Below, piece after piece: positions 7,939-59,705 of a DNA stretch of 64,000 nt (within the stretch, counting starts at the first letter, position 1; each line of letters begins with the position of its first letter). A program made the translations under genes and the position numbers. The notes beneath the pieces are model-generated. The model was not told the origin of the DNA. It did not search any database and saw nothing but the letters and a program-made list of their open reading frames with translations. This stretch comes from Pseudisothecium myosuroides (Eukaryota > Streptophyta > Bryopsida > Hypnales > Lembophyllaceae), in NCBI GenBank assembly GCA_951799445.1, contig OX637296.1:7564001-7628000 (forward strand). Reading direction: 5' to 3'.

Positions 7939-10900
7939 TCAGTGGAATATCTGGGGGGAGGCGTAGTATTCACTTTCCTTGAATACAGGCCTCAGATCCT
8001 CCTCCGCCATGAACGTGAGGGGGAAGAATACTAAATGGCCACTAATTGCATCTATACAATTCTGATCAGGGTCCGAAGGGCGATCCTCCGATGACCCGTC
8101 GGGCTTGGAGTTCACAGGGCCGATGCCCAGATCAATGGTGTTGTGGCTAATCTTGTCCTTGCGCAAAGAAATGGCTTGACGAAGCACAACACGAGACCGG
8201 ATCGAGTCATCGGGGATGGACCCAAAGACATCCTTGTATATGGTTGTGTTGGTTCTGGCTTTTGCCATCCACAGGTCCTTGTAAGTAGCGTCGCAAACAG
8301 GGTCCCGAATTGCATTGACTTCATTGGCACGCAAACCCAGATGCTCGGCCCATAGAGAAACTCGTAAAGAGTGTGCAAACCGCCCTGCATTCCATACCTT
8401 CCCGTTCATACTTGACCTGATGAACTGGTTGTCCTCCAACACAACTGCGAGCTCCGAGTCCCGGGACCCCAGCAGGCTTCTGTCGTTGATGTTGGCAGAT
8501 CCAATGAGCACCGACCAGTCGTCGACGATCATGATCTTGCTGTGCACGTAAATCTGGCTGGTGGCTAATGGTCCAGATTCGTGAAGCTTTCCATGGGAGC
8601 GGAGCCCATAGAAGGAGATATAATCATCAGCTTGCGCACCGAGCTCACTGGAAAGGCGTTCCAGTAGTGAGTTTTTACCCCTGCAGATTGTCCGGTACTG
8701 CCAATGCATGATGGCTCGTACTGAGGCAGCGCCACCGTCATCGACCCCACCTTGGAATCCAGGCAGCAAAGGGAGCACCACTATGACCCGGAAGCACCTG
8801 TGCTCCTTGTAAGCCCTCATTATGCGACTGTACAACGCCTGAAGCACCCTGTTGGTAATGGTGTCGTCCCCCTCCAAGCCAGAAATGAAAAATTGATTCT
8901 CAATGTACACAAAATATTCTGCTTTCTCGATGAGAGAGCAATAGGCCTCGTGAATGCTGCGTTCTTCGGCCTGGCTTGTCCCTGCTGACCACTGGCCTAC
9001 ACTGCGTATGACTTGGCATCGACACGACGTCTGCGGTCCTACTTCTCCTATGGCGTCAAATTCACCCAACTCGTGTTCATCCACATCCCACCACTCCGAT
9101 CTAGATCCCTGCTTCCGCATACGAGCGTGTCTCTTAAGCCGACCAGTACTCTTCCGCCTTGACTCGTCATCCACCATTGTGTCTCCTACAAACGCTTGCA
9201 GAGGAACATCTGACAACAAAGCCCTCTCTTCGTCATTGGAAGCAGCCCCGTGTGGGCTTCGCAGCGGTGAGAGACCGATAAAAGCGCGTTGAATTCCTTG
9301 CACGAGTTCAGTGCTGGCATGACGCGCAACCTGAACAATCTCAGTGCTGGAGATGCTGGGGTGACGAGAAATCGGAACGAGTTCGTTGCTTTCAACCTGG
9401 GCAGCTTCCTCTTGGTCACTCTCTTTCGGGAGCAGCAAGGGAATGTCGGAGTAGGAGGACCTTGGTGACTCCAACTGCTCAGATGATTGTCTCTGGATCT
9501 CATTTTCAACCTCCGCCTTTGCTTCAATTTCTTCGTTTCCTGATCCCAGTGCCATGTTAGAACAGTAATACTGACATTAAATTATCAACGAGAAAAGATC
9601 TCAGATTTGATAAGAAAAATTCAACCTTCTGAAATCCACATATTCGCCCTACTGCTAAAGGAATGTGCGTGCGGGTTTCAGAGAGCGACCATATCGGCTA
9701 CACTGTTTAGTCTACTTTGACCAGGAAGGGTCAAGGAAGATAGCAGGCGCAAGAACGAAAGCAAGCAGCACCTTCAAACACTCCAACTACAAGCCATAAA
9801 ATTGTTAAGTGGAGCAGTGTTTTCAGCCAAATTTAGACTTTTATACAAAATCATAAGGAGAATAACGTTTTCCTATGGTCACCATGATCAAACGGAGTCT
9901 TCAGCATAAAACATGGGGAGATCACCCATGAATTATAGTAAAGATTCTACTTACAATGTCGTCAAAAGTCATGGAACAGACTAATTCAACTGAAAACCCT
10001 GTACTAACAGACTAAGAAGCAACCTCGAAGGAAGAGATCACCTGTCAGATAGTGAGGAATGACCATGTGATGCTGCGGCAGAAGCAGCGGAATTGTATTC
10101 TCGTTGGGAGCTTTACTGCGCTTTGCGTAGTTCCACCTCTGAACAAAATGCCGGGCAACATCGCGACAAGGAGGTCCCCAAAGCGCACAGTGAACATCAT
10201 GCCACGGCATGCGTGGAACCTTCTGCCGGTCCAACTCGTCCTTCATCGTGTCCTCCCAAGAGTTAGGCTCCGATTCCCTTGGATTATAGTAATCTTTCCC
10301 AGGCCAAGTGGCGCTAGGGTAGTCGGAAACTCGGTGTTCAGGAGAATCGTAACGGCCGAAACACAAATCCAGCCCTCCAAGAAAACAAACATGGTGATCG
10401 ACTATCACAAATTTCTCATGATGCGACCATAGATACACTCCGGAGGAAAAATGGTCAGGAAATCGAAGAACCTTAATGTTCTCATGAAGTCCAAGCAACT
10501 TTTGCTTCGTGTAGTTGCTATTGATCTTCAAAGCCAGTGCCACTTCTTTGTACAACAAAATGAAAATTTGAACTCCCATCTTCGCTTTGGCTTCCAGGAG
10601 GTGGTCCAGCCGGGAGGCTTCGTTGCTGCTAAACGGGCGTCTCAGGTAAAGATCCGGACAGAGCCACCAGCCTGCAATAAAAATCTCTGACCTAGCGTTC
10701 TCAATTGCTGTAGCGATTCCTTCAAACGCAGCTTTTCCATCTACAAACCACTGAGCCTCGCTACCATCAGAGAAACCACGAGGTGGTGCAAAGGAGCCAA
10801 ACCGATGAGGATGACACCACCCCTCTGGAGGTCTCAAACCTGCATCATTGATGTTTGCAACCCAGTCCTTGGCCCGTCCAGCTCGTTGAGTTCGAATTCT

Positions 10901-13896
10901 AACAGACCTGGTTCCACATGTAACCATGAAGCTGAACCGCAAAGGGTTCCGCTCCTTGTTCAACCTTGCCAGTGCTATCAACCCCTCTGTAGCACCACGT
11001 TCCAAGGGTGGCAAAACATCAAAAACAATGATGTCCAGGGGCTTGGCATCAAAAGGATCTCCAAGTATAGCAAGGAACCCTGGTTTCAGAACCGCCCAAA
11101 CCCGTTGCCAGTTGGGATTACAACAGCAGCACGACTTCAAGCAAGCCAAGCATCCAGAATTCTGAGATAAGTTCGGCAGATGCTGAACCATGACAAAGCC
11201 TTCATGAAGCTTTGGACCGTACTCCGGGGCAAACGAGAGCTTCGAAACTTCTAGAAAACGACAGACTTCCCGAGAGTTCACAATATCTAAATCGTCCAAA
11301 AAATGTTTTAAATAATCCTGCATGGCATTCTGAGCCCTGTACGTGATCGTGGGTAAGCGTCCCAAAGCCGGCCGCATGACAGGCAACGCAGCGCTGGAGG
11401 GGATGTCTTTTCTGGTTGTGGAAGGGGCATCATCTTGCTCCAGCTCCTCCTCTTCCTGGAGGTTGATTGCCGCCGGGTCACCACTGCCTAAGTTCTGGAA
11501 CCACTCTCGAGCCTGCTCTTGCTTCTCATGGAGATCCTCAACGAGCGCCCGGAATTTGATGGCACTGTGAAGGGAGAAAACCTGAGTCGCTTTCTTCACA
11601 AGTCGCCACTTGAACTGCCGGTACTCGAAGTCTATTGTGTAGATCAGCTGAAAAGCCGTCCCTTCGGACCTGGAAACGCTAACGACGGTTGCCACAGGAG
11701 GCTCTTTGAATATGGGATCTTCCTCCATAAGCATTCGTGGAGGAGAAGCTCCCCTCGTTGGCGAGGCTTGCATCTGCGAATACTGGAAACCCTGCCCCAG
11801 CTCCTCGTCAGTTCCATCGAAGTCCCTATCCTTCGCCAGCTTCTCCTGTGAGTTTCTGCCAGTTGATCACCTGCAAATTCCATGCTCCTCCAAGTTACAG
11901 CGCTTACACCAAACAACCCTAGAGGCAATAAAAACTAAACAAACTCAACCTCGTCACAAGGAGCTCAGACAGGCCTTCAAATAAAAAAAGTTCGCGCTTA
12001 CACAAAATTCCCAACATACATGGCAGGATAGAGTCTCGAAGCCAGAACTCGGCCCTCATTAACCCCTATACGACCAACGATTCATAATTATAAAACGACC
12101 AATTTAGTTGATCATATTGTGAAAAGGATAATTCCATTGAACCAAACTTTAAATCATCAGAATCAGTGAAGAACATTGAACAGGTCAGTTCAAACATGAA
12201 TAAAATTGGACACAATAAAGAAACTCCTACAAGACCTGATCAAAGACAAATAAAATTGGGAAAACGAAAAAAAACCGTATGACCTACTCAAAACCGCTAA
12301 AAACACCAAAAATGGGGCGACCACGGAAAGTAACTGCTTCACATCATCCGGCAAATGATGGTCGATTTGGGCTTCTTGGTTCTTTCGGGGTTAACCTTCA
12401 GGTTTTATGAACAAGTCTCCAATTCCACTGCAGAGTACACACCTCTTCCAGAGAATCTTAGGGTTTGTGAAACGGATTCCATTAGATTCACATCAAGGTC
12501 TCACAAGGTACCTCTGAAGTCTTCAACCTTCACGAATTTCCATTGTATATAGGGGTTAATGGGGGCCACACAAAGCAGAGAGATTTCTCCATTTCATAAA
12601 AGTCAGCAATCATTGTACCTCGAAGACAAGAAATCACGTTACTAGGTGCGCTAAGAACTTACAAGTTGCAGCTTCCGTTGATAAAAACGAGCAGCGTCAC
12701 AACGAGTACGCAGAGAGATGTTGTGATGTAGCCAACCTCCTCAAGCAACATCTCCGTGGCATGAGATGACCATCGCCTCTGGGTCCGAGGTCCACTCTTG
12801 AATTGCTCCAAACCGTCATCAACTCGTACAATACCGGCAGCTTCCACTTCCGATTCCCAACACAATTGAACTCAAGTTTCACTGCCATAAATTGTTCCGC
12901 GTGGGAATCGGGTCTACTGAATCCGAAGGCCCCACTCAGATGCAAATAAAAGCAGCACCTACGGCACCTCCAGGTTTGATGTTGCGATCATGAGAACTTG
13001 ACAAAGTCTTCGTCCTGACTTGAAACTGTCTCTGTAAAATAAAAATTCCAACACGACTTATACTCTGCCAACACACCTCAGTCTCCCTACTGAAACACTC
13101 AATTTCTCAAAATTCAAAATAAAAAAGCAGGTCATGGACATTCGCACTCTGCAGAGAATGCACAAGGACTCAACACGGACTCACTCTGTTTTGGCATCAG
13201 TAGCACCGTCAAAATACCCTGTAAAACACAAACCCAACACAAATTTCACTCTCCCAAGTAACAACTCCTCCTTTCCCAACTACTTGAAACATTCAACATC
13301 TCAACATTCAACATAAGAAAGCAGCTCACAGCGTAAATGACGACCAAGCAGAAACCCTAAAGGAGGTCTTTCAATAAAATTGCGAAAAGCACTCTAAGAA
13401 TTCCACCTTCGACGATTCTCTTCCTCAAATTCCGCTAAATTCCTGGAATTCGAAGCTCACAACCCAATTGAACTAGGTTTTCCTTCTTGCCAGCAAAATT
13501 GCCGACTTCCGACGAAATTACGAAGCTACACTACTGATTGCACCACACGTCAGTGACAATTCGGCTCAACGATCGATCGATCTCAGCAAACGAAACTCCA
13601 AAACCAAGAAGCATCGGTTTCGACGCTTGGACTGCACAAGAGCGGGGTTAAGTTAAGGGAGTGTTCATGAAAATCCTACGAGGAGTGTAATAACTTACTA
13701 ACCAGATCACACTGAGACGAAAAACGACGGAGAATCTTACCGCTGGCACAACAGCAGTGTCAGAAGAGGAAGAAGAAGGCTCTGCGAAAATGCATTTCGG
13801 AGCGAGGGGCGCTGCTGCAGCAGTAAGGCCGGTAGGGCTTGCAGATGGTGTACGAGAGCCACTACCTACGCGAGTGCTGTGCTTCTGCCGTAGCAT
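7939..13896 (-). CDS. Phospholipase D zeta-type (PX-PH-PLD)
   Basis: Hydrolyses membrane phospholipids to phosphatidic acid. Plant zeta-class enzymes carry PX and PH lipid-binding domains in place of C2 (family knowledge). Coding exons as read: 13896-13741, 11845-10042 and 9539-7939, giving about 1,186 residues. The last two exons are certain. The first, a serine/alanine-rich leader, rests on phase-0 splice sites only; a start at 11773 would give 1,110 residues. PX then PH sequence is followed by the first HKD motif (HEKFVIVD, about residue 527) and the second (HSKIMIVD, about residue 986), both complete. The C-terminus ESEYYASPQIFH is typical of the class. The second exon alone carries PX, PH and the first catalytic half, so the gene is intron-poor for this family. 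The first intron (11846-13740) contains a possible TTAA element. Confidence 0.92.
12059..12559. mobile_element. Possible TTAA-flanked MITE in PLD intron 1
   Basis: TTAA occurs at 12059-12062 and 12556-12559. The sequence between starts CCCCTATA and ends in its inverse, TATAGGGG. The inverted match is only about 8 bp, so this could be chance, but target and first bases agree with the piggyBac-like elements elsewhere in the window. Confidence 0.4.
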
Positions 13897-17518: not shown

Positions 17519-18424
17519 TTAACACCTAAAGGACCAAGGCATTTTCTGGCTCTAAAACCACTAAAAACCGCCGTTTCTACTGCGATCACTCCCTAAACCA
17601 AAAAAAAATTTAGAATCTAACCATAAAATTTTGTACTTCACTTGTCTCAGATCATGTGGTAAAAATTTCATGAAATTTGACCGTATGGATTGGAAGATAT
17701 TAGCATTTGAAGTTGGAAAAAGAAGTTTTTTTGAACTGTTGCCTGCAATTTTAGAGGACTTTGACGGCCATTTGTGGATTTTTTTTGCACTACACACCAT
17801 AAAGTTAAAATTTTTTATGTTGAACATTTGAGTTGAGAGTTGGGGAAAAAAATTCAAATGTCAAAACTTGATTTTCACATATAAAAAAATTGTTAAGTAG
17901 AAGTAGGTCCAAAATTGAATGAAACACTAAATTGGTAATAGCTCTTAGGTGGAATTAAACACCATAATCATAATGGTGGGATTGTTTTTGCAAAAAAACT
18001 TAACCTTTTTTTTTTAAAATTGAAAATAATTGAAAATTGCATTCAAACATGAATTCTATAAGTTGAAGAAGATGTTTAGATTGCCCAAAAAATAAGATTG
18101 TCTATAACTTTCTCATTCTGAGTCCAAAGAGAATGAATCAAATCTTCAAATGTAGAAAAAAACATGATCTTTGAGAGAAGAAAAAAAAATTTAATCAATT
18201 TTTTTAAGTTTTTTTTTCTGCCCGGCAAACTGCTTTTTTGACTTCGGGTGGCATAACTTTTGCTCCCAGGCCCCGATTGAAAAAAAAATTATATTTTTAG
18301 AAAGCTAATGTGATTTTCTATCTTCATAAAATGTTTCAAAACATCATATCAAAATTTCAGGTCGCACGGGCCTGCCCAAAATCCCAAGTGTCCCCCGAGG
18401 GGACTTTGGTCCTTTAGGGGTTAA
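17519..18424. mobile_element. piggyBac-like TTAA MITE, copy A
   Basis: The element is 17523-18420 (898 bp) between TTAA at 17519-17522 and 18421-18424. The left end cacctaaaggaccaagg pairs with the inverse of the right end cccctaaaggaccaaag. Near the right end, ccccgaggggac forms a small palindrome, as in the related copies. No coding capacity. The neighbouring unoccupied copy at 17226-17415 supports the boundaries. Confidence 0.85.
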
Positions 18425-27068: not shown

Positions 27069-27965
27069 TTAACCCCTAAAGGCCCAAGGCCTTTTTTCTG
27101 AAAAAAAACACTCAATCTATAGCAAAAAGTAAAAAAACATTAAAATTGTTTTTTTTTCACATCTAATTGTAGGATCTTACACCTAATTGGTATGAGAATG
27201 TGTGGAAAAAATTTCAGAATTTTTGACCGCACAGATTGCAAGACTGCGTTTAAAGTGGAAAAAACAAGTTTTTCAGAACATTGGAGGACCAGATTTTTTG
27301 ACTTTAAACATTTTTTAACTTAAAATTTTTGCACTACAGCGTTTTGAGCTTTAAATCTTTATAGTGGAGAATTGAGTTGAGAGTCTAGGAAAAAAAACTT
27401 AATTATCATTCTTAAAAAAATTGTTAAGTAGAAGTAGGTACAAGATAGAAGGAAAATCTAAAATATTCATATATTTTAGATGGAATTAAAATGCACTAAT
27501 CCCAATGGTGAGATTGTTCTAGCAAATAAACTAAACCATTCCAAAAAAAAAAATTGAAAAATTACAAAAATTGCATTCCGAAATGAATCCTACAAGTTAT
27601 TTTTTTCAAAAACATGCTCTAACTGCCTGAAAAACAAGAATGTCCATAACTTCTTCATAACAAATTCAAATGAAATGAATCAAAGCTTTCCAGATAGACA
27701 AAAATATAATCTATGAAGGAAAAAAAAATTCAAAAATTCAAAATTTGCAAATTTTTTTGCTGCCCCCCGTCCCCAAGCATTCCAAGAAATGGCATAACTT
27801 CTCGCTCAAAGGTCCGATTTCAATTTTTTTTTTTCTACCACGTACCTCTCTCAATTCTTCATGTTCAAAAAAAGTTTCAAAAAATCAAGAGAAAATTTCA
27901 GCCCATAGGTACCTGCCCAAAAACACATTTGTCCCCCGAAGGGACAATGGGCTTTTAGGGGTTAC
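27069..27965. mobile_element. piggyBac-like TTAA MITE, copy B
   Basis: The element is 27073-27961 (889 bp), with TTAA at 27069-27072 on the left and TTAC on the right, probably a mutated TTAA. Ends are cccctaaaggcccaaggcc and, inverted, cccctaaaagcccattg. It carries a tgtcccccgaagggaca stem-loop near the right end. It closely matches the reverse complement of copy C (48299-49208), suggesting recent activity. Confidence 0.85.
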
Positions 27966-31056: not shown

Positions 31057-31700
31057 TTAACCCCTAAAGTCCCAAGGCCATATTTTTGCCAAAAACCATT
31101 TAAAATTGCCATTTGTGTTGCGTTCACCCAAGAAAACAAATAAAACATTTTTTTAAGCCAAAAACCAGTACTGCATTCACCCAAGAAAGCAAATAGAACA
31201 TTTAAAAAAATCTAATAATAGGATCTTGTGCTTCACTTATCTGAGATCATGCGGTAAAAATTTCATCAAATTTGACCATATAGATTGGAAGATATTAGCA
31301 TTCAAAGTTGGACAAATATTTTTTTTTCAAAAAGATGCTTATATTGCCCAAAAAATAAGATTGTCCATAACTTTCTCTTCACTAGTCCAAATAGAATGAA
31401 TTAAAGCTTCATATGTAGACAAAAATATAGTATTTTAGGAAAAAAAATTTAAAAATTTAATTTTCACTTTCTGCAAATTTTTTTGTGTTGCCCGCTAAGT
31501 TTAGTTTTAGACTTTTTGTGTTATACAGAGTAGCTTTTACTCATGGGCACCAATTGAAATAAAATTATATTCCCACGAAGCTAATCAGTTTTTCTATCTT
31601 ATGAAAAAGTTTCAAAAAGTTTTACCAAACATTGAGGTCATAGGAACCTGACCAAAATCCATTTTGTCCTCCAAGGAGGCAATGGGACTTTAGGGGTCAA
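31057..31700. mobile_element. piggyBac-like TTAA MITE, copy D (internally deleted)
   Basis: The element is 31061-31696 (636 bp). It has TTAA at 31057-31060 and TCAA on the right. Both ends read cccctaaagtccca in inverted orientation, 14 identical bases. The interior is shorter than that of the 0.9-kb copies. Confidence 0.75.
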
Positions 31701-32789: not shown

Positions 32790-33726
32790 TTAACCCCTAA
32801 AGTTCCATGACTATGTTTTCACCGAAAACACTCAAAAACTGCCATTTTTAGTACAAGTACCAAATTCTTGCAAAAGAAACTTTTTTGACACATGTAACCA
32901 TAGGATCTTATAGTAAACTAGTTTTGGAAGATGTGGAAAAAATTTCAGAATTTTCCACCATACGGATTGGAAGATAATAGCATTTGAATTAGCAAAAATC
33001 CTTTTTTTGTCCCTGCAAAAAACAGGGCAGCTGCACTTCACAAGGTCACATTTGTACAAAAAAATGTCCAAAATGGTACAGTAGTGCTTCTCTGAATTCT
33101 TTTTCCTAAACAAGTTGGCTACATGCTTAAAAAATTTCAAATCATTTGGAGTTGTACAACATATACAAAAAAAATAGTAAGTAGAAAGAAGTAGAGAATG
33201 ATCCAAAATATTAAATTGTTAAGAATTTAATTATGGAATTGAAAAATGTCAATCCCAATGGTTGTAATGTTGTAATAAACAATCTGCATCCTATGATTTT
33301 TTTTTCCCAAAAAATATTAAAAATTGAGTGACATAAATAGCTTCAAAGTTTATTTCAGAGTAGAGAATCCATAACTGCCCATAAACTAAAAACACTCATA
33401 ACTTTTGACTCATTGGTCGAAATGGAATGATTCAAAGCTTTCCACTTATACATAACTCTAAAAGAACAATTTCAAATTTTTATTTTTGAAAAAAGTATTT
33501 TTTTCTGATCTGCCCGGACTGCCCAGTTACAAAAAAAAGTAACATATTTGGCCATAACTTTTGACTCCTATTTCCAAATGTCATGAAATTTAGTGCATAT
33601 GAAAGATATTTCTTGCGCCCACCTTCTATTAAAATTTCAGCTTAAAATATGAAAATCTCTAGTCACACGTACTTGCCCAAAATTTCTATACAACCAAAAA
33701 ACGCATGCCAGTCCTTTAGGGGTTAA
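32790..33726. mobile_element. piggyBac-like TTAA MITE, copy E
   Basis: The element is 32794-33722 (929 bp), with TTAA at 32790-32793 and 33723-33726. Ends are cccctaaagttccatgac and, inverted, cccctaaaggactggcatg. Its interior defines a subfamily shared with copy F and different from copies A-D. No coding capacity. Confidence 0.85.
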
Positions 33727-36296: not shown

Positions 36297-36358
36297 CATT
36301 TAGTTTTAGGGTTTAGTTTTAGGTTTTAGGGTTTAGTTTTAGGTTTTAGGGTTTAGAG
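36297..36358. repeat. Interstitial telomere-like repeats
   Basis: Degenerate units of TTTAGGG mixed with TTTTAGG and TTTAG follow the 177-codon ORF. They match the plant-type telomere motif imperfectly, so this is an interstitial repeat rather than a chromosome end. Confidence 0.75.
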
Positions 36359-48294: not shown

Positions 48295-49212
48295 TTAACC
48301 CCTAAAGGACCGTTGTCCCTTCGGGGGACAAATGCGTTTTCGGGCAGGTACCTATGGGCTGAAATTTTCTCCTGATTTTTTTAAACTTTTTGTGAATGTG
48401 AAGAATTGAGAGAGGTACGTGGTGGGAAAAAAAAATTTGAAATCAGACCTTTGAGTGAGAAGTTATGCCATTTCTTGGAATGCATGGGGACGGGAGGCAG
48501 CAAAAAAATTTGCAAAATTTTGAATTTTTTAAATTTTTTTTTCTCATAGATTATATTTTTGTCTATCTGGAAAGCTTTGATTCATTTCATTTGGATTTGT
48601 TATGAGGAAGTTATGGACATTCTTGTTTTTCGGGCAGTTAGAACATCTTCTTGAAAAAAATAACTTGTAGGATTCATTTCGGAATGCAATTTTTGTAATT
48701 TTTCAATTTATTTTTTTGTAATGGTTTAGTTTACTTGCTAGAACAGTCTCACCATTGGGATTAGTGCATTTTAATTCCATCTAAAATATATTAATATTTT
48801 AGATTTTCCTTCTATCTTGTACCTACTTCTACTTAATAATTTTTTTAAGAATGACAATTAAGTTTTTTTGAATTTTTTTTTCCTAGACTCTCAACTCAAT
48901 TCTCCACTATAAAGATTTAAAGCTCAAAACGCTGTAGTGCAAAAATTTTAAGTTAAAAATGTTTAAAGTCAAAAAATCTGGTCCCGCAATGTGCTGAAAA
49001 ACTTGTTTTTTCCACTTTAAACACAGATATCTTGCAATCTGTGCGGTCAAAAATTCTGAAATTTTTTCCACACATTCTCATACCAATTAGGTATAAGATC
49101 CTATGGTTAGATGTGAAAAAAAAACAATTTTAATTTTTTTACTTTTTGCTATAGAAATGGCAGTTTTGAGTTTTTTTTGGCAGAAAAAAGGCCTCGGTCC
49201 TTTAGGGGTTAA
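48295..49212. mobile_element. piggyBac-like TTAA MITE, copy C
   Basis: The element is 48299-49208 (910 bp), flanked by perfect TTAA at 48295-48298 and 49209-49212. Ends are cccctaaaggaccgttgtc and, inverted, cccctaaaggaccgaggcc. Close to the left end gtcccttcgggggac forms a stem-loop. It is the reverse-orientation sibling of copy B and lies 0.5 kb from the transposase-bearing element. Confidence 0.92.
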
Positions 49213-50879
49213 TTCAAGTTTAGGACAGCTCACCTATCCAACCCCCCAAACTATTAATTAGAAAACTAAACCTACTAAGGAATTTCAACGGTATCCAATG
49301 TTTGACACCCTATTTTTTTTCTACTATACTAAAAAACGAAGGCTTTTTTCATACCATATTTTTTGTAAATGCGCGAAGTGCATATTACCAATGCTATGGT
49401 ATCTCTACCAAAAGTATAAAATTTTCCTTCAACAAATTAAATTGACCCTAGTTTTAATCTCATGCCATTTTCTACTGCACTGATGGTCTCCCCTTCAAGG
49501 TCTATATATGAATTTGATTCTTTATTTTATTTTATTCATGTAGTTTACTTTGGTATGATCAACTAAAATATATGGAGATATATTTGGCCAGCACTTCTAT
49601 ATGAAAGTGATACATCTACCTTCTATAACATGTATTAGTTTAATGAAAACAATATGCAGGGTGCAGCACACATTAGTTTTGTTTGAGGAAGTAGTGCTAC
49701 TTGTCTTAACCCCAAAAGGACCCTGAAATTTCCCGAACGTGAGAGCCGCTTCAAAGTGACGAACAAGAATCAAATTTCAGAATTTTCCATTGCCAGTAGT
49801 CATAGATGTAACCGTATGGATTGCATGTAAAGTATTCACAGATTGTGCAACAATTTTTTGCCGCCCTAAATTATTTGCCAAAGTGCATCAGATTCACCCA
49901 GTTGTCACCGTACACACTTTCCAAATCAGGACTTCTGGAGATGCTCGTGAAGCTTCGGTGGATGCTGAAGGCCGAAAAATGTTTGGATTTACATGCGGTT
50001 TTTTGTATCGGGGAGAACATAACATGTAGAACCTACAAATCAAAACAACCTAGGGTTAGTATCAACATAAATTTCTGTAAGTTGACCCGAAGTTCGCGGT
50101 CTTAGGGTGGCCACTGCATGGTGGTAAAAAGGGATTTATTTATTGAAAAAAATGGGGTGCAGTAACAAATCATCGGAACGATGAATATAGCACAGTCGAC
50201 AAGTGCTACCCGTGTGCCAAATTGTGCGCAAATCGAGCGGTTCGTCTGGGTACAAGGACAGTTTAGACTTCAGAAACAGGCCAACCCAGTGAAAGGGAGG
50301 GTGAGCTCCGCGGGAAGCAAGCGTGGCGTAAAAAAACCCCGCGGGTAACCTTACCTAGAGCACGAATCCATACGTACGTTACTGCCAACGAGGCAGCTGG
50401 ACTAACCGTTTCTGCGCCTGCTCCGAAATGACAGGCTCGAAGGCGTTTTCTTTACAACTACGAGTATCAGACTCTGCAAAATCACGATCAATTCAATCTA
50501 GCAAGGCTGCACGTAGAGTCTGCATTCGAAATGCCAACAACCCAAAACAACAATTTCATGAATTTCCGCTCAGATTGAAAAGTCTTCCAAAATTTTTGTT
50601 TGGCGACACTGGAGAGTATCAACAGAAACATTGCCATTTGATGTCCTACGGATCTGAGGCAACAAAAACCAGATGCCGTAAACTATTGCAACGGGGGACG
50701 CCTAAAATTGAAATCAATCCTACCTACGGAGACGCAAGACAATTCAAGTAAGACACTGTCCTTGAACTAATGTTCCCGTCGAGGTGGCTTCCACCGAAAT
50801 CTTCGCAGCAAAACGACAGCGTGGCCACGCCTCCGGAGGTGCCGCGAACCTCTTGCATTGAACCTGTACAAAGACAAAC

Positions 50880-53135
50880 TTACTTCAAAACTTTGGCCGC
50901 GTATTTTGGAATCGTGTGAACCTTCAAATAGCAAGGGCCCTCGCACATGTAAGCACCTCCGCACCCTGGACAGTATTGGATCTGCTTCCTGCCGCAGATC
51001 ACACACTTCGTCCGGAGCTTCTCGTGTTTCGCAGAGTAATGCAGGCTTTGGGCGCTGCAATTGAAAGAGGCGCCAGTGCGCCCAGGACGCACCTCAATGT
51101 CACACATCCAATTGGCAAGTGAGTAGTGGAATTGTATTCGTGACATTACTCGCTTCTGCTTGGAGCCAAGAGCATGAATCTTATACAAAACATAAGCATT
51201 GCCTAAACTAGTATCAAGAATAAAGAGTAGCAAGCGGTGCCACCACTTGTGGGAACGCAACTGAGCAGTGTATTCCATGCAACATTGGTCTACTAAATCG
51301 ACCCCTCGCATCATTTCCTGGTACTCTAGTAGGATTGGAGAAGTGTGATATGCCTTTCTACCGTCATGCCTAGTCCATCGGTAGCAGGAAATGCCCTCCA
51401 CTATGGGATCTACGGAAGTGCTAAGCAAAAAAACAGGAATCCTGTCAAACCAAACGATAGCGGACATGCAACGAGACCTATGCATCTGAACAATAATTCC
51501 CCCTCGTTCACCAGCGACGTGTGAGTATGGGGCCAAGTTTGGAGGCATGCCTGCTCGGTTTGGCATGACGGTGCCGGTGGCCAAGAAGCCATCCTGCCAC
51601 AGCTCGTCAAACAGCTTCGGTGACGTGAAGAAGCGGTCGGTTACAATAACATGACCCAACCCCTTCAGATCAGAGACCAAAGACTTCACAACTTTCAACC
51701 CAAGTTCTTTTTCTGGACGCAAACCCTTTCGCCCTGTGTATACTTCTAAGTCATAAACGTATCGGGACTTGCTATTGGCCATGCACCAAACCTTGATCCC
51801 GTACTTCACGGGTTTGCTGGCATGTACTGTTTTATGGTGCATCTCCTACCGCGATGGGGAATCATTATTTCATCTACGCAAATGTAACGCTCACAGTTGT
51901 ATAACTGTTTACACATTTGGACAAATGACTCCAATAACCATCGCACCTTTGTGATTTTGTCATACGCTGGGTCTGTTTTCTCTACCACTAATCCCGAGTT
52001 GTCCACTAAGTGGATGCAACGACAGATGTCTTCAAACCTTGCTCTGCGCATAGCGGCTTTGATAAGTGGACACCCAAAGAACGACCTCTTGGACCAATAT
52101 AACCGATTACAGGGCAATTTCTTCAAGCCCATATATATACATATGCCTAACCAACATCGAAGCTCTCTTGGCGTCAAATCCTCCCACTTCACTCCACCGT
52201 TACTCTTCTGGGGATTACTAAACTTTGGCTGCTTAGCATAACGATTAGTTTGGTCACAAATCACCTGCAATGTTTGCAAGGGCCAATACGGTTCCCAAAA
52301 CTCATGTACAGGCACTGGTCGACGCCTCTAGCGACGAACAGGTCCGGGAGTTGGGCCGGTGAATGGGAAGCGATTAGGGAGAAGGGTTGTGCTAAGATCC
52401 TCCCAATGCTGTGGAGCATACCTATGCTCAAATGCGAAGGAATCAAAATCTAAGTCAGGGGCATCAGCATTGCTATCCTCTATAAATTCCGGATCACTGC
52501 CCTCGTCGGATAGGACCCAATCAGAGTTCCCAGTATTGGAGTTACCTTGCCAGTCGCCAAACTCGGCCTCCTAGTCTGGATCGGCATTTCCGTCATCGCT
52601 GTCGTCCCCTCCAGATTCGAGATAACAGGGCAACTCCAGCGTGAAAGTAGAATCCTAAGTTAGAATGGAAATGTTCGGGCTCCCCCCTTCCTCACCAGCG
52701 GCTACCTCCGTGATGTCCCCTTCTACTACAGGGTTGCATTTGTCTTTTTGAATTGCTTGAGTTCCGAGAACTCCACCGAAGTCAACTTTATACATTGTTG
52801 ATCTAGTAACGATGTGTTGAAATTCACGCAGCACCTCCCCAAATAACATATTCTCCTCGCCAACGGAGGGGCTCAGTCCCAGCACAGCACGCGGCATCCA
52901 GACCCGAGTCACAACAGAAGAGTCGTCAGGTAACACTCTTGCCGAAGGACTGCCCTCGGTGACTCCCAAGTGCAGACACGCCCTTCCATCGCTGCAGGAA
53001 TTGTACCAGCCCAGGCTGTCAAGAGCCCGAATAGTGCCATGTAATTCTCCATCGCCTACCACAACACGCTTGCCTTCACAACACGCTTGCCTTCAAGGAT
53101 TCTCAACGAAGAACCGACAAGAAAGAAACATTATC
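50880..53135 (-). pseudogene. piggyBac transposase, decayed
   Basis: DDE-type transposase of the piggyBac superfamily. The three catalytic aspartates are recognisable in CVDEIMIPHRG, VIVTDRFFTSPKLF and MRGVDLVDQ, in that order, and a Cys-rich C-terminal domain (CVICGRKQIQYCPGCGGAYMC) follows, as in the family. The reading frame is broken: three in-frame TAG codons in the acidic N-terminal part (near 52655, 52575 and 52330), a one-base deletion near 51820 after KQYMP, and a 17-bp tandem duplication at 53060-53093 that shifts the frame near the N-terminus. The true start is not resolved. The stop is TAA at 50880. All domains are otherwise present in order, so inactivation looks recent. Confidence 0.9.
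53060..53093. repeat. 17-bp tandem duplication inside the transposase
   Basis: Two exact copies of cacaacacgcttgcctt (53060-53076 and 53077-53093). As 17 is not a multiple of 3, it breaks the transposase frame; upstream of it the frame remains open in the shifted register. Confidence 0.9.
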
Positions 53136-53488
53136 ACCAAAGACATTGTCCAAATATGATCGAATATGGAAAATTCGACCGTTCTTCGTAACAATGGCAA
53201 TAGTTTGTAACCGTAGTGGCCACAAGTTTTAAAAGTTTTAGACTGGTATAGAAGATAAAAATACTAATCCTAGCATGGAGCAAAAAAACCTAATCCTTGA
53301 TGCAGCAAATAATATAGAAACCTGCTGAAGGAACAGTTCATTGATAAACCAAACATCAATTGAACTTGAAAGCAAGCTCTTACATGGTAGCAATTTGGAC
53401 ATCTTCAGGGGCTAGCACAGGCTTGCGACTCGATTCAAGGGTCTTCCAAACGCCAGGATGGAAAATGACATTGGCATCACGTTCTTCA
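53136..53488. other. Gap between transposase and kinesin-Myb gene
   Basis: No gene is seen. This interval should hold the kinesin-Myb 3' untranslated region and the transposase promoter, because both genes read leftward. Confidence 0.35.
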
Positions 53489-56400
53489 CTAATGTTTGCC
53501 ACTCAATGTTTTCTTACGTTTTGTTAAATTCCGCCATTTATCTCTTAATTGTAATCCAGTTTTAACGTTTAATACTGAATACAAAGATTTAATCTCCTCC
53601 CATTTCCCCTCACCACATGCAAAAACGCCATTTTCTAAGGCCATTGTTTGCTCCTCATTCCACCTCACATACTTTGCTTTCTTCTTTTCTTCATTCTTCT
53701 CCTCCTTTTCCATTTCCTCCACCTCTTCCTTTTCCATTTCCTCCTCCTTCCCCTTCTTCTTACAGAAAGTCACGTTTTCCTCCTCCTCTTCCTTTTCTAT
53801 TTCCTCCACCTCTTCCTTTTTTGTTTCCTCCTCCTTCCCCTTCTTCTTACGGAAAGTCACGTTTTCCGGTGACAAACTATCGCTCTTCCCCATTTCAAAT
53901 CTAAGTTCAGATAACCCTAAACTCGGACTAAATAAACCAGAAACTACTTTTGAAGATGGCACACCTCTAACCATTTCGGGGCTAGGTGGATTTTCCCAAA
54001 AATGAAACATTTCTGTGCCTTCGAAATTCTTCTTCTTCTTCACCTAATAAAAAATTTAGAAAACCAAAAAAAATATTTTAAGTGAATTAAATTTATGAAA
54101 AATTAAAAAAGGAAATATACAAAGAACTCTTATCAAGGTCAAACTCCTTACCAAGTTATTAAGCTCTTCATCAGAACTTTCCAACAAGTTGAAGCTCCCT
54201 CTCTTCAACACCACTTCCCCCTTCAACTCCACTTTCCCCTTCAACTCCAACTTTTTGACAAGTTGGTTAAGAGTTTCCACCTGTGGAAACACAAAACATA
54301 GAATGAAAAAATAAAAAGTTTCAGTTTGACACTAAGGCACACCCACTCAGCTAATAGAGATCTATACAGTACTATATGTTGAAATAACAAGTTTTCACCT
54401 GCTCTCGAAGAAACTTATTCTCACGTTCTACTTCAGAAGTGTCATGAGCCTTTTTGTCCCCGTCCACATCCTCATGAATCACCGCCTGTACATAACCGAA
54501 TACAAACCCTCCATGTTAAGTCCATCCAAGGATGTTTCTACGGTGTAGTTGTACTAGTCAAAACAAGAAAAAATGCGCACCGTATTGCCCATGAATTTAG
54601 CTTGCTCAGCAAACTTCAGAGTACTCAAGGTTTCGAAAACATTGCTGTCATACCACATAAACAAGGATCAGAGCAAAAAACAAAGCTAGATCTACAAGCG
54701 GACGAACGTTCACACAAAGTCATAAACATACATATACTATTGTGGATGAACTCAAAACCGGAGATAGAAAGGACAAACCAGCTGGAAGAGCTAACTGTAG
54801 CCATGATTACAATTTTACAGTTTCTTCCCAGCGAATCCTGCACACGATCATAGCTACTCAACTTCCTCATCCGTTTAAGTAGGCTAATTCTTTGACTTCA
54901 GTACACTTTACGATGCAGTGGCCCGGGGCTCTTGCATGGAATTGAGTCATGAATGCAACGACAGATCTGCTTGTGACATGGCTAATGATGTTTTACCCGG
55001 AGAAGGAAGGTCAGTTTGGAGTCTCGATAGGGAATATGGCATGATCGGCCCTTTACGACATGGACCAGCATGCTAGTCACCAACCTACACAAGATACATG
55101 GCAATCACATCAATTGTCCTCTCAAAACACTAGTCTTTGTTGATGTAGGTCATAAACTCGACTCATGCCGTGTGGCACGCAAACTTACCCTAAGGTAGAT
55201 AGAGATTTGTTGATCTAAGCAGCCTTCTTTCAGCTACTCGCCTTTAACTCCAGAGTCCTTTTGCCTAAAATCGTGCAATCAGTTTCCATTAGAACTTCAA
55301 TGCTTCCATGTACAAGTTATAATCGCACAAATTTCAAGCATTTCGCAAACTTCTATGCCATCTTTGAGTTGGAAGATGTTTACCTCTCAGAACCTGCGAG
55401 GTCAACAAAATTCAATTTTCCAAATCGAATTTTAACCATCGAAGCATGCTTCCATCTGCTTTCGATGGTGCACGTGAATACGCTATGAGAGCGGCTAGAC
55501 TCTCTATTCCTATTTGTGGCTGCTACTTTCCTGTTTGCCAATCCCTGAAACAGATAAAGGTGGATTCCCATGAGTAATTCTGGATAAACAAAAATTAGCA
55601 TTAATTCAACTAACGCTACCTCCGGATAACAATCCTTGGAAAAGAGGTGTTGGGAGTGACCTTGCTAAGCAACTAAATCACATCTCCAAAACTGTTCACC
55701 TCCAACTCGGTCAACTTATCCACATACACCTTTTTTTGTAAATCCTCTCGCAGCTGCATGATATCATCACAAGAATTCAACAACATCCGACTTGAACAAA
55801 GAAAAGTCCTTTGCAAATCTCTAAAGAACCAAGGTGAAGGTGCAGCACCAGCAAATTGGTAGAGGTAGGCTTCAGCAGATCAGTAATTCGATCATTGTAA
55901 ATTTCCAAGAAGGAACACTTGGTCAAAAAACTCTCGAAAAAACTTAGGCCCTTGTCCTTGTGTGGTTCCACCTCCTGTAGAGAGAGCAATGTGCACCACG
56001 GCCACACCACAGCCACTGAATCTCCAGACGTCTAATACATACAAAACAAAAATGAAGTGACCAAAAGTTCATCATCTCACGAAGCCACTAAGATGCATAC
56101 CAGTTGCATTTTAGAAAAAAGGGACTCAAACACGCGAGGAGTCACACCCGAATTGTCACTCGGTTTGTCAGTGAGATGCTTGATGTTGCCAAACATGGTG
56201 TGGGTCTTACCACTTCCACTCTGCAGCAATCACCAAAGAAATTAGTCAATATTCAAAATTGCAAAAAAATAACAATGCAAAGCATATATGCACAAGCAAC
56301 CTAAAGCTTCCACAAACCATGCCAAATTCATAGCAAAATCAACGTAGATGCACATAGAAACAAAATCAACCTGGCCGTACGCAAACATGCAACAGTTGTA

Positions 56401-56844
56401 GCCTGCCATAGAATTCTCCACCATTGGCAACCCAGCCACGTTAAATAACTCCTCCTAAAAATTGAAAACCAAGAAAAGACATAAACCCGTTAGGCGATAT
56501 TCATAAACAATACCACTTACTTACAAAAGATTGCAAAAGATTATGTGCGAATGAACCTGGGAAGTATTTTCTCCGGCGACATAATCAAAAGTGAAAAAAG
56601 TTTCCGGGCGCCCCAACCAGGTTACGGTGTGAGTATCTTCTTGTCTCAAACATTTTTTATTTTCGTTGTCACTTGACCAAATTCTCACAACAATTCGCGA
56701 GACATCTACAACTATGCTGGAAGCCATTCCGCCGATAGGAAGAGCTCCGAAGGGAGAAAACCGTGATGAACCGATTAGAGCTACGACGAAGACAATTACG
56801 ACGGGAGAAAGATGCGGAAAGTTCGCGAAAGGGACTCTCACCAT
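53489..56844 (-). pseudogene. Chimeric KIN-12 kinesin motor with telobox Myb, decayed
   Basis: Thirteen exons as read: 56844-56557, 56454-56371, 56220-56101, 55974-55849, 55753-55661, 55544-55384, 55264-55189, 55084-54997, 54837-54779, 54644-54581, 54485-54399, 54280-54152, 54043-53489. The motor is KIN-12-like: RQEDTHTVTWLGRPETFFTFD, a P-loop across two exons (GQ then SGSGKTHTM), SFLEIYNDRITDLL, switch I NRESSRSH, switch II VDLAGSER, PYRDSKLTFLL and ETLSTLKFA. A KIN-12-like neck (VIHEDVDGD) and a short lysine/glutamate-rich region follow. The last exon ends in a Myb domain with WNEEQTMALENGVFACGEGKW and LQLRDKWRNL, the telobox signature. Junctions after the motor are all phase 0. Damage: TAG at 55675-55673, two TAG codons and a one-base insertion in the 55264-55189 exon. 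Start could be ATG 56844 or 56727. Confidence 0.82.
53660..53860. repeat. Low-complexity acidic/basic tandem repeat in the Myb exon
   Basis: A unit of about 100 bp that encodes NVTF followed by a KKKGKEEE-type run and glutamate/lysine blocks appears twice. On the plus strand it reads as pyrimidine-rich ttcctcctcc, which yields spurious proline/serine or phenylalanine/leucine frames. Confidence 0.75.
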
Positions 56845-58021
56845 TTATTCAGAAATGGAGACGACGAAAAATCTTTACTGAAGATTAGAAGATGGCTAAA
56901 AAATCTTTAGAAGATGGCGACCCATTACTGATCAGACCCCATTCTGGTGGTATAGGGTTTCTTAATTCCATGCAAGAGGAAATGTTTAAATGATCAATTC
57001 TGACATTTGAAGATTGGGATCAGAATAGCTGATTCGTAAGGTGGCAGCTGGCAGTGAACACATTTAATTGCAGCCATTTTTTGAATTGTGTAGGCACATG
57101 TCTAGCAGGCCTTGGAGATGGGTGTAAATGATACTATTTTTTTATAAAAAAATTCAAGGGGATTGAAAATGATCCAAACGGTCGAATGAACATGGCCATT
57201 TTTAGAAAACAACAGAAGCAAAATTCATGGAAATCAAATGGTGCATTTGTCTGTAGTGTCATTTCTTCTTGCAACCTCAGTGCAACCCGGTGAATCAATG
57301 GGTGATTGTGGCAGGAATCAAGCGTGGAAGGGGGAAATTGGCGGGATACCTGACCTGGTGAGTGCCTGAGTGGAGTGGCAAAGTCATACTTGGCTAGCTT
57401 GACAAGTGCACTAACTGTTTCTACCTCCTCCTCGCTGAGCCTGGTTTCGCTTTCTGCATTGTTGCAGCTTGTTGTCGTTGTGTGTGCACACCAATTACAA
57501 TTCACGCACATGGACTGTCAACGATCGAATACGACACTGCTAAAACAATGCCTCCGAATCCAATGCCTCCCACAGCAACCTCAAGAAATTTGCCAGAATA
57601 AAAAAAAACTTAGCCCTGTCCTCTTCTTTGCAGAAAAAAATTGCTATGAAATTCTACTTCCAATCTAAGGAAGACAAGAGTACTTAGGAAGTGAGGGTTT
57701 CAGATGGCGAGAATGGCTATGTGGCGGAAAACGGACTCCTATCTTGCAACGGTTTTCCTCCGGGTGGGGCCTTGTCACCCGTGGTACGTCATCCTTGTTG
57801 GCAGGGAACCTTGCTCCCCTAAAATGGAGGGTGGCCTTGCTGTCACAGTTTTAAAAATTGATGGCCACATCAGCTTTTGAATCTAAGACTACCCCCCTCT
57901 TTAGAATTTGTAGCCTTCCAATTGTATAGTTAATAATTTCTCCTAATTCGTCCCTGATTTTGAGTTATTCACTTCTGAAAAACCTTCGAGGACACATTTT
58001 GTCCTCAGGGACGTTTTGGGG
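56845..58021. other. Right subterminal region of the piggyBac element
   Basis: Presumed promoter side of the kinesin-Myb gene plus the element's right end. A minus-strand frame (57134-57511) includes RLSEEEVETVSALVKLAKYD-like sequence that could be a fragment of another captured exon, but I do not recognise it. The right terminal repeat and a stem-loop occupy the last 40 bp. Confidence 0.35.
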
Positions 58022-58025
58022 TTAA

Positions 58026-59035
58026 GCAAGAAGTATGGAAGATAAGGATTGACATTGCTCCAACATATGATGACTTGGGAATTGAAAACTAAGAGCATGC
58101 CCACCCCCACTCACCACACGTGGCCAAAGCAGGTTTGGCATGGACAGGGGGCCAAAACAGTCCCCACTGTGTCACTGGGCATGATTTTCCAAACACCAAG
58201 CTTGCCAGATTTTGGCCAGGGTACCATAGTTTGGAGTGGACGAGAAATTCCTTTTGAGCCCAAAGTTGACTGATGTCAAAGCACTTTGCATTCAATTTTG
58301 CTCGTCTTTGTGCTCAGAAACACTTTGCTTGTCATTGCATTGTGTACTTTGCTTGTCACTGTGTCGTCAGAAGCAGATTGGAATTCAAGGCTGTTGGGAG
58401 TAGTCATTTTTTTACTGGCAAAATAGTGCCTAATAACGAAATAAATTTTTTTAAAGCGTTATTATTATAATAAAATATGAGAATTCAAAATGTCTAGTCG
58501 CCAAATTGCCTACATAATGATTTGTGGCCACGCTAGTAAGCGCTGGGCCCATCTGACTCGTCAGGGTTTTTCGCCAGTAATCAAGTTCACCTAGCAAGAG
58601 TGCAGACAACTAATAGTGCTATCAGTGAGTTCAAGGATTCCTAGTTGAGCAGACAACTATTCACTACGTGACCTCTTTGCCAGTACTGCGCCTCTTTAAC
58701 GCATAGAATTCGCTTGTCATGCGAAAATTTATTTTGGTAGGGTGCATATGGAAATTGACGGTTGGAGTGTTGTACTGTTGGAGACTTGGAGACGGCTTGA
58801 AGCCATTAGGGTTTAGGTCCTTGGACGGCTGGACTCTTGAAGTAAGGAAGCCGTTGGTGTGTGCCTTAGAGGAGCGAGTTGGTGGAGTAATGAAGCGACT
58901 TGGTGGAGCACTGGAGCGAGTTGCGTAGTTTCTTTTACTGAGTACTGCATTGAGAGTTTTGCGACGTGCGCAATGAATTTCATGTTCTTTGTAATTTGCA
59001 GTTTTTGCTTGAGTGGAAAATTAGCGTCAACTTTA
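58026..59035. other. Spacer between piggyBac and tandem array
   Basis: No gene is supported. A 69-codon plus-strand frame (58719-58928) contains a tagggtttagg motif and has no family resemblance. Confidence 0.35.
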
Positions 59036-59705
59036 GTTTTCATCGATTTGAAATTTTGAATTTAAGTGGAGACTCAAGCAACGAGGACTAGTGAGTATTG
59101 TTATGCAATTGAGTCATTCTTATTGTTAGAAAGATTAGTACCTAGAATCGAAATTCAAACTTCGATCTCCCAAACCAGCAAGATTGCAAGACCAAGTGCC
59201 TAGTTTTCATCGATTTCAAATTTTGAACTTGAATAGAGACTGAAGCAACGAGGATTAGTGAGTATTGTTATGCAATCGAGTCATTCTTGTTGTTAGAAAG
59301 ATCAGTACCTAGAACCGAAATTCAAACTTCGATCTCCCAAACCAGTAAGACTACAAGACCAAGTGCCAAGTTTTCATCAATTTGAAATTTTGAACTTGAG
59401 TGGAGACTGAAGCAACGAGGATTAGTGAGTATTGTTATGCAATCGAGTCATTCTTGTTGTTAGAAAGATCAATACCTAGAATCAAAATTCAAATTTCGAT
59501 CTCCCAAACCAGCAAGACTACAAGACCAAGTGCCCAATTTTCATCGATTTGAGATTTTGAACTTTAGTGGAGACTCAAGAAGAGGATTAGTGAGTATTGT
59601 TATACAATCAAGTCATTCTTGTTGTTAGAAAGATCAGTATCCAATATTGATCCTCACCTTAGAACCGAAATTTAAACTTTGATCTACCAAACCAACAAGA
59701 CAAAG
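59036..59705. repeat. Tandem array of a 167-bp unit
   Basis: Four copies start at ttttcatcgatttga or close variants, with the cat at 59041, 59208, 59375 and 59542, an exact 167-bp period. Shared landmarks: gtgagtattgttatgcaat, cattcttgttgttagaaag, cttcgatctcccaaacc. The last copy is slightly rearranged. Confidence 0.93.

Follow-up and report, generated by a model that had tools for sequence, protein, structure and literature searches.

The stretch of DNA analysed here, referred to as the window, comprises 64,000 nt of contig OX637296.1 of Pseudisothecium myosuroides, and the coordinates given below are positions in this window unless they bear the prefix of a contig of the same assembly (C1–C10, the element under study being on C10). 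At 49706-58025 lies a piggyBac element, a decayed copy belonging to a large family of this genome, 8.3 kb long with its cargo, where the remnant of a transposase gene and a kinesin-like gene are enclosed between two family ends (Table 1). All genomic comparisons were made with the element's own assembly (388 Mb, 222 contigs), which was the sole assembly used; searching it with the DNA of the element gave 51 matches, the best 40 of 129 candidates being scored.

Table 1. Features of the piggyBac-family element and of the DNA it encloses (positions in the window)
Feature	Position	Strand	Evidence
Whole piggyBac-family element, including both TTAA	49706..58025	minus (genes)	inverted arms 20/22; both ends match sisters
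Left end, TTAA and left-type terminal repeat	49706..49727	plus	same-subtype end in 15/20 relatives; four aligned sister ends
Left arm, from the end to the transposase 3' end	49728..50879		64-70% identity to the four sisters over its first 300 bp
C-terminal piece of the transposase (PF13843, cysteine-rich tail)	50880..51845	minus	PF13843 E 2.1e-35; residues 736-1047 of sister C6
Transposase middle piece, TAGs at 52328, 52571 and 52655	51806..53092	minus	residues 316-738 of sister C6
17-bp tandem duplication at the transposase/insert junction	53060..53095		sister alignments end at ~53079
Fragment like part of an RMC1-like gene	53095..53436	minus	81% to C2:766732-767078
52-bp filler	53437..53488		86-bp query over the filler matched only itself in the assembly
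Kinesin-12-like pseudogene, 13-exon model, Myb/SANT exon at 53489-54043	53489..56844	minus	PF00225 and Myb matches
Kinesin upstream flank	56845..57075	minus	C4 homology strong as far as 56871, similarity weak between 56988 and ~57072
DNA like family sequence beside a left end on C3	57099..57363		74% to L065:486-749
Right arm plus right end; GAGGAC...GTCCTC palindrome near the end	57552..58025		aligns to 4/4 sisters

Ends, transposase and sister elements

An earlier note, made from the sequence alone, had described the locus as a piggyBac element with a kinesin gene inside, and its description of the borders holds. TTAA is present on both sides, at 49706-49709 and 58022-58025, as expected from the target duplication of piggyBac elements, and the terminal match, reported at the time as 15 of 17 bases, extends over inverted arms of 22 nt (49705-49726 and 58005-58026) that are complementary at 20 positions (91%). 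Both terminal repeats begin with CCCCAAAA, in keeping with the short inverted repeats and initial run of C known for piggyBac, and the four sister elements described below are alike in this respect. As piggyBac-like ends are frequent in the window, with 17 found against 1.55 expected and none of 100 shuffles reaching 17, the pairing of 49706 with 58025 needed a test. Ten of these 17 ends read CCCCTAAA; the pair in question reads CCCCAAAA, a subtype with 196 matches genome-wide (90 on the plus and 106 on the minus strand, none for the backwards control), the places of which are known for C1 to part of C5 only. Assuming a uniform spread, a facing end of the same subtype would occur by chance within 10 kb in an estimated 0.3% or so of cases; given this density and the ends of the sisters, a random pairing of unrelated ends was rejected as unlikely. 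When the relatives matching the transposase were retrieved with 1.5 kb of flank, the left-type end of the element's subtype was in place in 15 of 20, one of the remaining five having a variant left end (L053) and four having no such end in the stretch examined. The window also has six places where piggyBac-like ends face each other at a distance of 0.34-0.94 kb, probably MITEs (miniature inverted-repeat transposable elements), at 12059-12394, 17519-18424, 27069-27965, 31057-31700, 32790-33726 and 48295-49212.

Regarding the transposase, membership in the piggyBac superfamily, as proposed from the outset, is clear from the matches of two minus-strand pieces to PF13843 (123.1 and 119 bits, the latter on 51806-52327 with an E value of 3.8e-34). 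The sister on C6 (C6:24384692-24390178) serves as reference, with a frame of 1047 residues from stop to stop, to which the copy in the element aligns from residue 316 on, with 296/423 and 256/312 identical residues in the middle and C-terminal pieces. These two pieces are separated by a frameshift at 51806-51845 and the three in-frame TAGs of the middle piece stand opposite Q, W and Q of the C6 protein. At least 315 N-terminal residues are missing, together with an exon-like stretch found upstream of the transposase frame in all four sisters (with the words WRILFYSN); queries with the C6 N-terminus returned weak or low-complexity matches only in the element, with E 2e-4 at best, and E 6e-44 or better in the sister on C7. 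With three TAGs, a frameshift and no N-terminus, the element thus lacks the intact transposase of an autonomous element. Against solved piggyBac-type transposases, the C6 frame reaches E 2.3e-33 with piggyBat (9c0f) and E 2e-19 with 6x67, and it aligns with piggyBat at DEGIVP, MDNYYNS and MKGVDRADQ, i.e. at all three positions which we take to be those of the catalytic aspartates of piggyBac transposases; the motifs CVDEIMIP, VTDRFFTS and MRGVDLVDQ of the element align with C6 in turn. A search of the protein collection with the C6 frame yielded no match at E 0.001 among 7994 scored, repetitive words having probably filled the candidates.

Four sisters could be read from end to end, on C7, C6, C3 and C1 (5429, 5487, 5496 and 5537 bp, respectively), and all of them carry the transposase alone, without kinesin. 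Each aligns with the element over a left part, to ~53079, and a right part, from 57552-57558 to 58025, and each has the right-end palindrome, albeit with some substitutions. Around related transposases, a further three pairs of ends, compared for their ends only, are spaced 5451, 5584 and 5585 bp apart. On the sequences compared, the normal unit of the family is therefore about 5.5 kb long (5.4-5.6 kb), with one long transposase gene, and since the sisters share the left end, the right end and the palindrome with the element, 49706 and 58025 are taken as genuine ends, left and right, of a single family. The scarcity of piggyBac in plants, invoked previously, does not extend to this genome, where at least 116 matches to PF13843 were scored of 899 first-look candidates. 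Besides, three loci on C2, C9 and C10 (L001, L004 and L005) are identical or one base apart over 4116 bp, as if a different piggyBac subfamily had been active recently, and a set of matches to the left end and to two consecutive transposase pieces, spread on one strand over 57 kb (C8:3489140-3545839) is perhaps a copy of the present family split by later insertions.

The replaced segment and its kinesin gene

In the element, some 4 kb of other DNA occupy the place of the transposase N-terminus. The fragment next to the junction, 342 bp long, resembles part of an exon and an apparent intron of an RMC1-like gene, and a nearby frame on the same strand at the corresponding C2 locus matches RMC1_N with E 1e-21. 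Beyond the filler, strong homology to a kinesin locus on C4 begins sharply at the kinesin stop codon, at 53489, with weak similarity reaching back to 53454 in a looser alignment; on the other side of the gene, the weak similarity within the upstream flank amounts to 63 identical positions out of 88. Closer to the right arm, the DNA resembles family sequence at a C3 locus (L065), where a left-type end is present at 91 and no right end was found.

The kinesin-like gene, announced as having 13 exons in the orientation of the transposase, could indeed be modelled in this way, with 12 GT-AG introns and exon borders set by eye at GT/AG. Three exon pieces match PF00225 with 63.2, 23.9 and 21.4 bits, the latter two being below the curated cut-off of 29.3 bits. 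KIF15 comes first among the PDB matches of the strongest piece and the named plant matches are mostly KIN-12 among the 120 listed of 7980 proteins past the cut-off, the motor domain being thus closest to KIN-12/KIF15. Kinesin-12 proteins possess a long coiled-coil tail; the gene in the element is unlike them in being short and in ending with short exons and a Myb/SANT exon. This last exon exceeds the cut-off for PF13921 (23.7 against 22.9 bits), falls just under that for PF00249 (24.3 against 24.4 bits) and, on our own reading, joins the preceding kinesin exons in phase. None of the 120 kinesin-matching proteins listed has a Pfam Myb domain, and the C-terminal region had no match at E <=10 among 3204 candidates of the protein collection, a search that missed ordinary Myb proteins too. 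The gene is disrupted by a TAG in exon 5 and by a TAG and a frameshift in exon 7, opposite which the C4 copy has CAG at both stops and an open frame. Recoding of TAG was rejected as an explanation in either gene, given the sense codons opposite the stops in C4 and the Q, W and Q of the C6 transposase; many PF13843 relatives are moreover open without stops, and decay is simpler.

The C4 copy (C4:34497054-34500221) is identical to the element's kinesin at 91.8, 91.5, 94.2 and 86.4% of positions in four blocks. No CCCCAAAA-type end occurs within the 17.2 kb read around it and, among the matches listed, no exact end of this subtype lies within 3 Mb of it or within 0.5 Mb of a further copy on C2 at 8.13 Mb; several of the MITE-like pairs of the window have relatives near the C4 copy. 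The Myb/SANT exon has relatives in the C4 copy, in the C2 copy at 8.13 Mb and on C7, the last with five stops, and together with the element on C10 these make up a small group in which a kinesin has a Myb/SANT domain at its C-terminus. Since one intron is missing, AT replaces GT at one donor and 8 nt are inserted in exon 4, damage to the C4 copy is probable as well; on our reading the C2 copy also seems impaired around exon 7, and no intact kinesin-Myb gene was found among these four copies. The intron absent from C4, near 34497896 (L032), corresponds to 54486-54580 and is missing precisely; since this intron is apparently present in the C2 copy at 8.13 Mb, loss in C4 appears likelier than gain elsewhere. 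Two other kinesin-12-like loci on C2, in opposite orientation at 9048514-9053595 (L034) and 9091235-9096316 (L033), are 99.92% identical over 5082 bp, which would reflect either a recent inverted duplication or an effect of assembly; these loci at 9.05 and 9.09 Mb match the motor, with no Myb exon within the 1.5 kb examined. Compared with the 120 listed proteins, the KIN-12 motor of locus C2b shows identities of 80.6% with a protein from a metagenome, 79.6% with one of Sesamum and 72% with one of Physcomitrium.

Age and selection were approached by comparison with C4, with exons 1, 4 and 7 trimmed and the intron that C4 lacks left out. Differences amount to 56/1270 positions in 11 introns (4.4%) and 89/1618 in exons (5.5%), that is more in exons than in introns. 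Over 529 codons, dN is 0.040 and dS 0.122; as dN equals the intron divergence of 0.044, the resulting dN/dS of 0.33 is not good evidence of constraint. With introns at 4.4% from C4 and a transposase region at best 74% identical to its relatives in the assembly search, the kinesin copy is, as far as such divergences reflect timing, much younger than the lineage of the element.

Origin of the cargo-bearing unit

Capture of a host-type gene by a piggyBac element is well supported by these sequences, and the overall explanation favoured here, with a probability of about 0.8, is replacement and capture in one decayed piggyBac copy. Compared with the unit of about 5.5 kb, this copy has lost the part of the transposase next to its right end and has gained a replacement of about 4 kb, in which the filler lies between the RMC1-like fragment and a kinesin-12-like gene that is nearly complete, introns and C-terminal Myb domain included. 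As the introns were kept, the kinesin derives from a DNA template rather than from mRNA. The likeliest route is faulty repair of a break within the element, e.g. gap repair after excision switching to other templates, which would account for the copying at the DNA level, the two sources, the filler and the duplication at the join; the odds between this route and other routes of capture are about even. With repair in place, the unit of 8.3 kb need never have moved with its cargo. The earlier note had left the choice between capture of a host gene and co-evolution with it: the former is upheld by sisters devoid of the host gene, and the latter is disfavoured by sister ends that flank the transposase only. 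Copies of this very kind had been named beforehand as what would refute the proposal; they do count against co-evolution across the family, and they are what capture in a single copy predicts.

Several observations weigh against replacement and capture in one copy. In the DNA examined, no donor locus has the RMC1 fragment adjoining the kinesin, and no paralogous empty site was found, the flanks at ~49506-49705 and 58026-58085 having no other match among the best candidates scored. Over 57099-57552, no alignment to any of the four sisters was obtained. All sisters are about equally distant from the element, at 64-70% in the left arm and 66-70% over the last 300 bp of the right arm, so that the arms cannot prove an origin from one element. 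Only in the C6 sister does the transposase remain a single open frame as far as the C-terminus, those of C7 and C1 being fragmented and the C3 frame breaking near its end; decay is thus usual in the family. With one copy at hand, it cannot be shown whether the cargo preceded or followed the last move.

The main rival, an unlikely one on balance, is a hybrid element, in which two neighbouring piggyBac copies with complementary deletions would have trapped the intervening host DNA, each end of the element deriving from a different copy. Such a model was proposed for Pack-CACTA in Arabidopsis (PMC13317346). As expected under it, no part of the sisters is covered by both the left and the right portion of the element, and the equal divergence of all sisters is compatible with it; however, the enclosed DNA joins the RMC1-like fragment, the filler and the kinesin and does not correspond to a single continuous segment of any known host locus, and the nearest kinesin copies are located elsewhere.

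A functional two-gene transposon, moving and co-evolving with its kinesin, is very improbable. While both ends and both TTAA are kept and the dN/dS of 0.33 against C4 would, taken alone, suggest past constraint, this ratio is weakened by a dN equal to the divergence of introns. The large two-gene transposon envisaged at first does not agree with a unit found once, where both genes are broken by premature stops and frameshifts and where the cargo stands in place of the transposase N-terminus; the search for other copies with both ends and both genes, suggested as a check, returned the element at full length only as itself among the best 40 of 129 candidates, instead of the several copies with both genes open expected from such a transposon, and none of the four sisters has a kinesin. 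The locus looks like a rare one-off capture rather than a working transposon of two genes.

Insertion of another mobile element bearing the kinesin into an old piggyBac copy deserves as little credence. It would explain the sharp left edge of the strong C4 homology; yet the edges of the block (~120-140 bp compared around each) share no inverted repeat of at least 8 bp, the sole direct repeat, ATTCAAGGG at 53433 and 57152, does not coincide with the two edges, and the absence of transposase sequence at the site denotes a replacement and not a clean insertion. As for an artefact, the case does rest on one assembly, but a kinesin copy at 86-94% identity to its nearest locus and with decay of its own is no misplaced duplicate, which makes this the least credible explanation.

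Elsewhere in the window, two tandem arrays are present, at 59034-59639 (167-bp unit, 3.6 copies) and 3838-4285 (88-bp unit, 5 copies), as well as an array of short repeats like TTTAGGG, the plant telomere motif, at 36299-36356. Two long open frames with phospholipase D motifs are found on the minus strand at 7942-11866.

Relation to known gene-carrying elements

Kinesins linked to selfish DNA are known from maize, where Kindr and Trkin act as meiotic drivers. The element has this linkage in common with them and differs in that its kinesin is broken and in single copy. By analogy, a transposon-borne DNA-binding motor could once have biased chromosome transmission, a highly speculative idea to which very little weight is given.

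A nearer likeness is with Pack-TYPE elements (Pack-MULE, Pack-CACTA and others), where host gene DNA with introns lies between transposon ends, as described in two papers (PMC8903248; PMC13317346). Like them, the element is non-autonomous and has family ends enclosing host gene sequence; unlike them, it holds nearly a whole gene along with a transposase remnant, in one copy. Regarding spread with the cargo, only this copy was found, and the TTAA on both sides fits insertion and gives no date. The Pack-TYPE survey deals with MULE, CACTA, hAT, PIF-Harbinger and Mariner; piggyBac is nowhere named in its main text (PMC8903248). "Pack-piggyBac" gave no match in the literature searched, so that piggyBac is not among the superfamilies for which Pack-TYPE elements have been described there, and no case of a piggyBac-borne kinesin or of piggyBac gene capture was found among the titles listed from that literature; in one paper (PMC10619864), "piggyback" was the verb. 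Full-length capture of host genes by Helitrons, as in Pack-MULEs, is given as exceptionally rare in a review (PMC6431247). Teratorn, presented in the same review (PMC6431247), is likewise a piggyBac-type element joined to foreign genes, and differs in its size of 41-182 kb, its herpesvirus genes, its activity and its host, a fish.

The closest known kind is thus Pack-TYPE capture, with piggyBac as a carrier new to the literature searched. On this reading, piggyBac would join the DNA transposons seen enclosing plant host genes, and what it encloses is no mere fragment but an almost entire gene, introns included. As the sister elements of the same genome display the state before capture, the claim is testable, and the joins, with two sources, a filler and a 17-bp duplication, would offer a readable trace of how capture may happen. 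Besides, the kinesin-Myb gene architecture indicated here is of interest in related plants.

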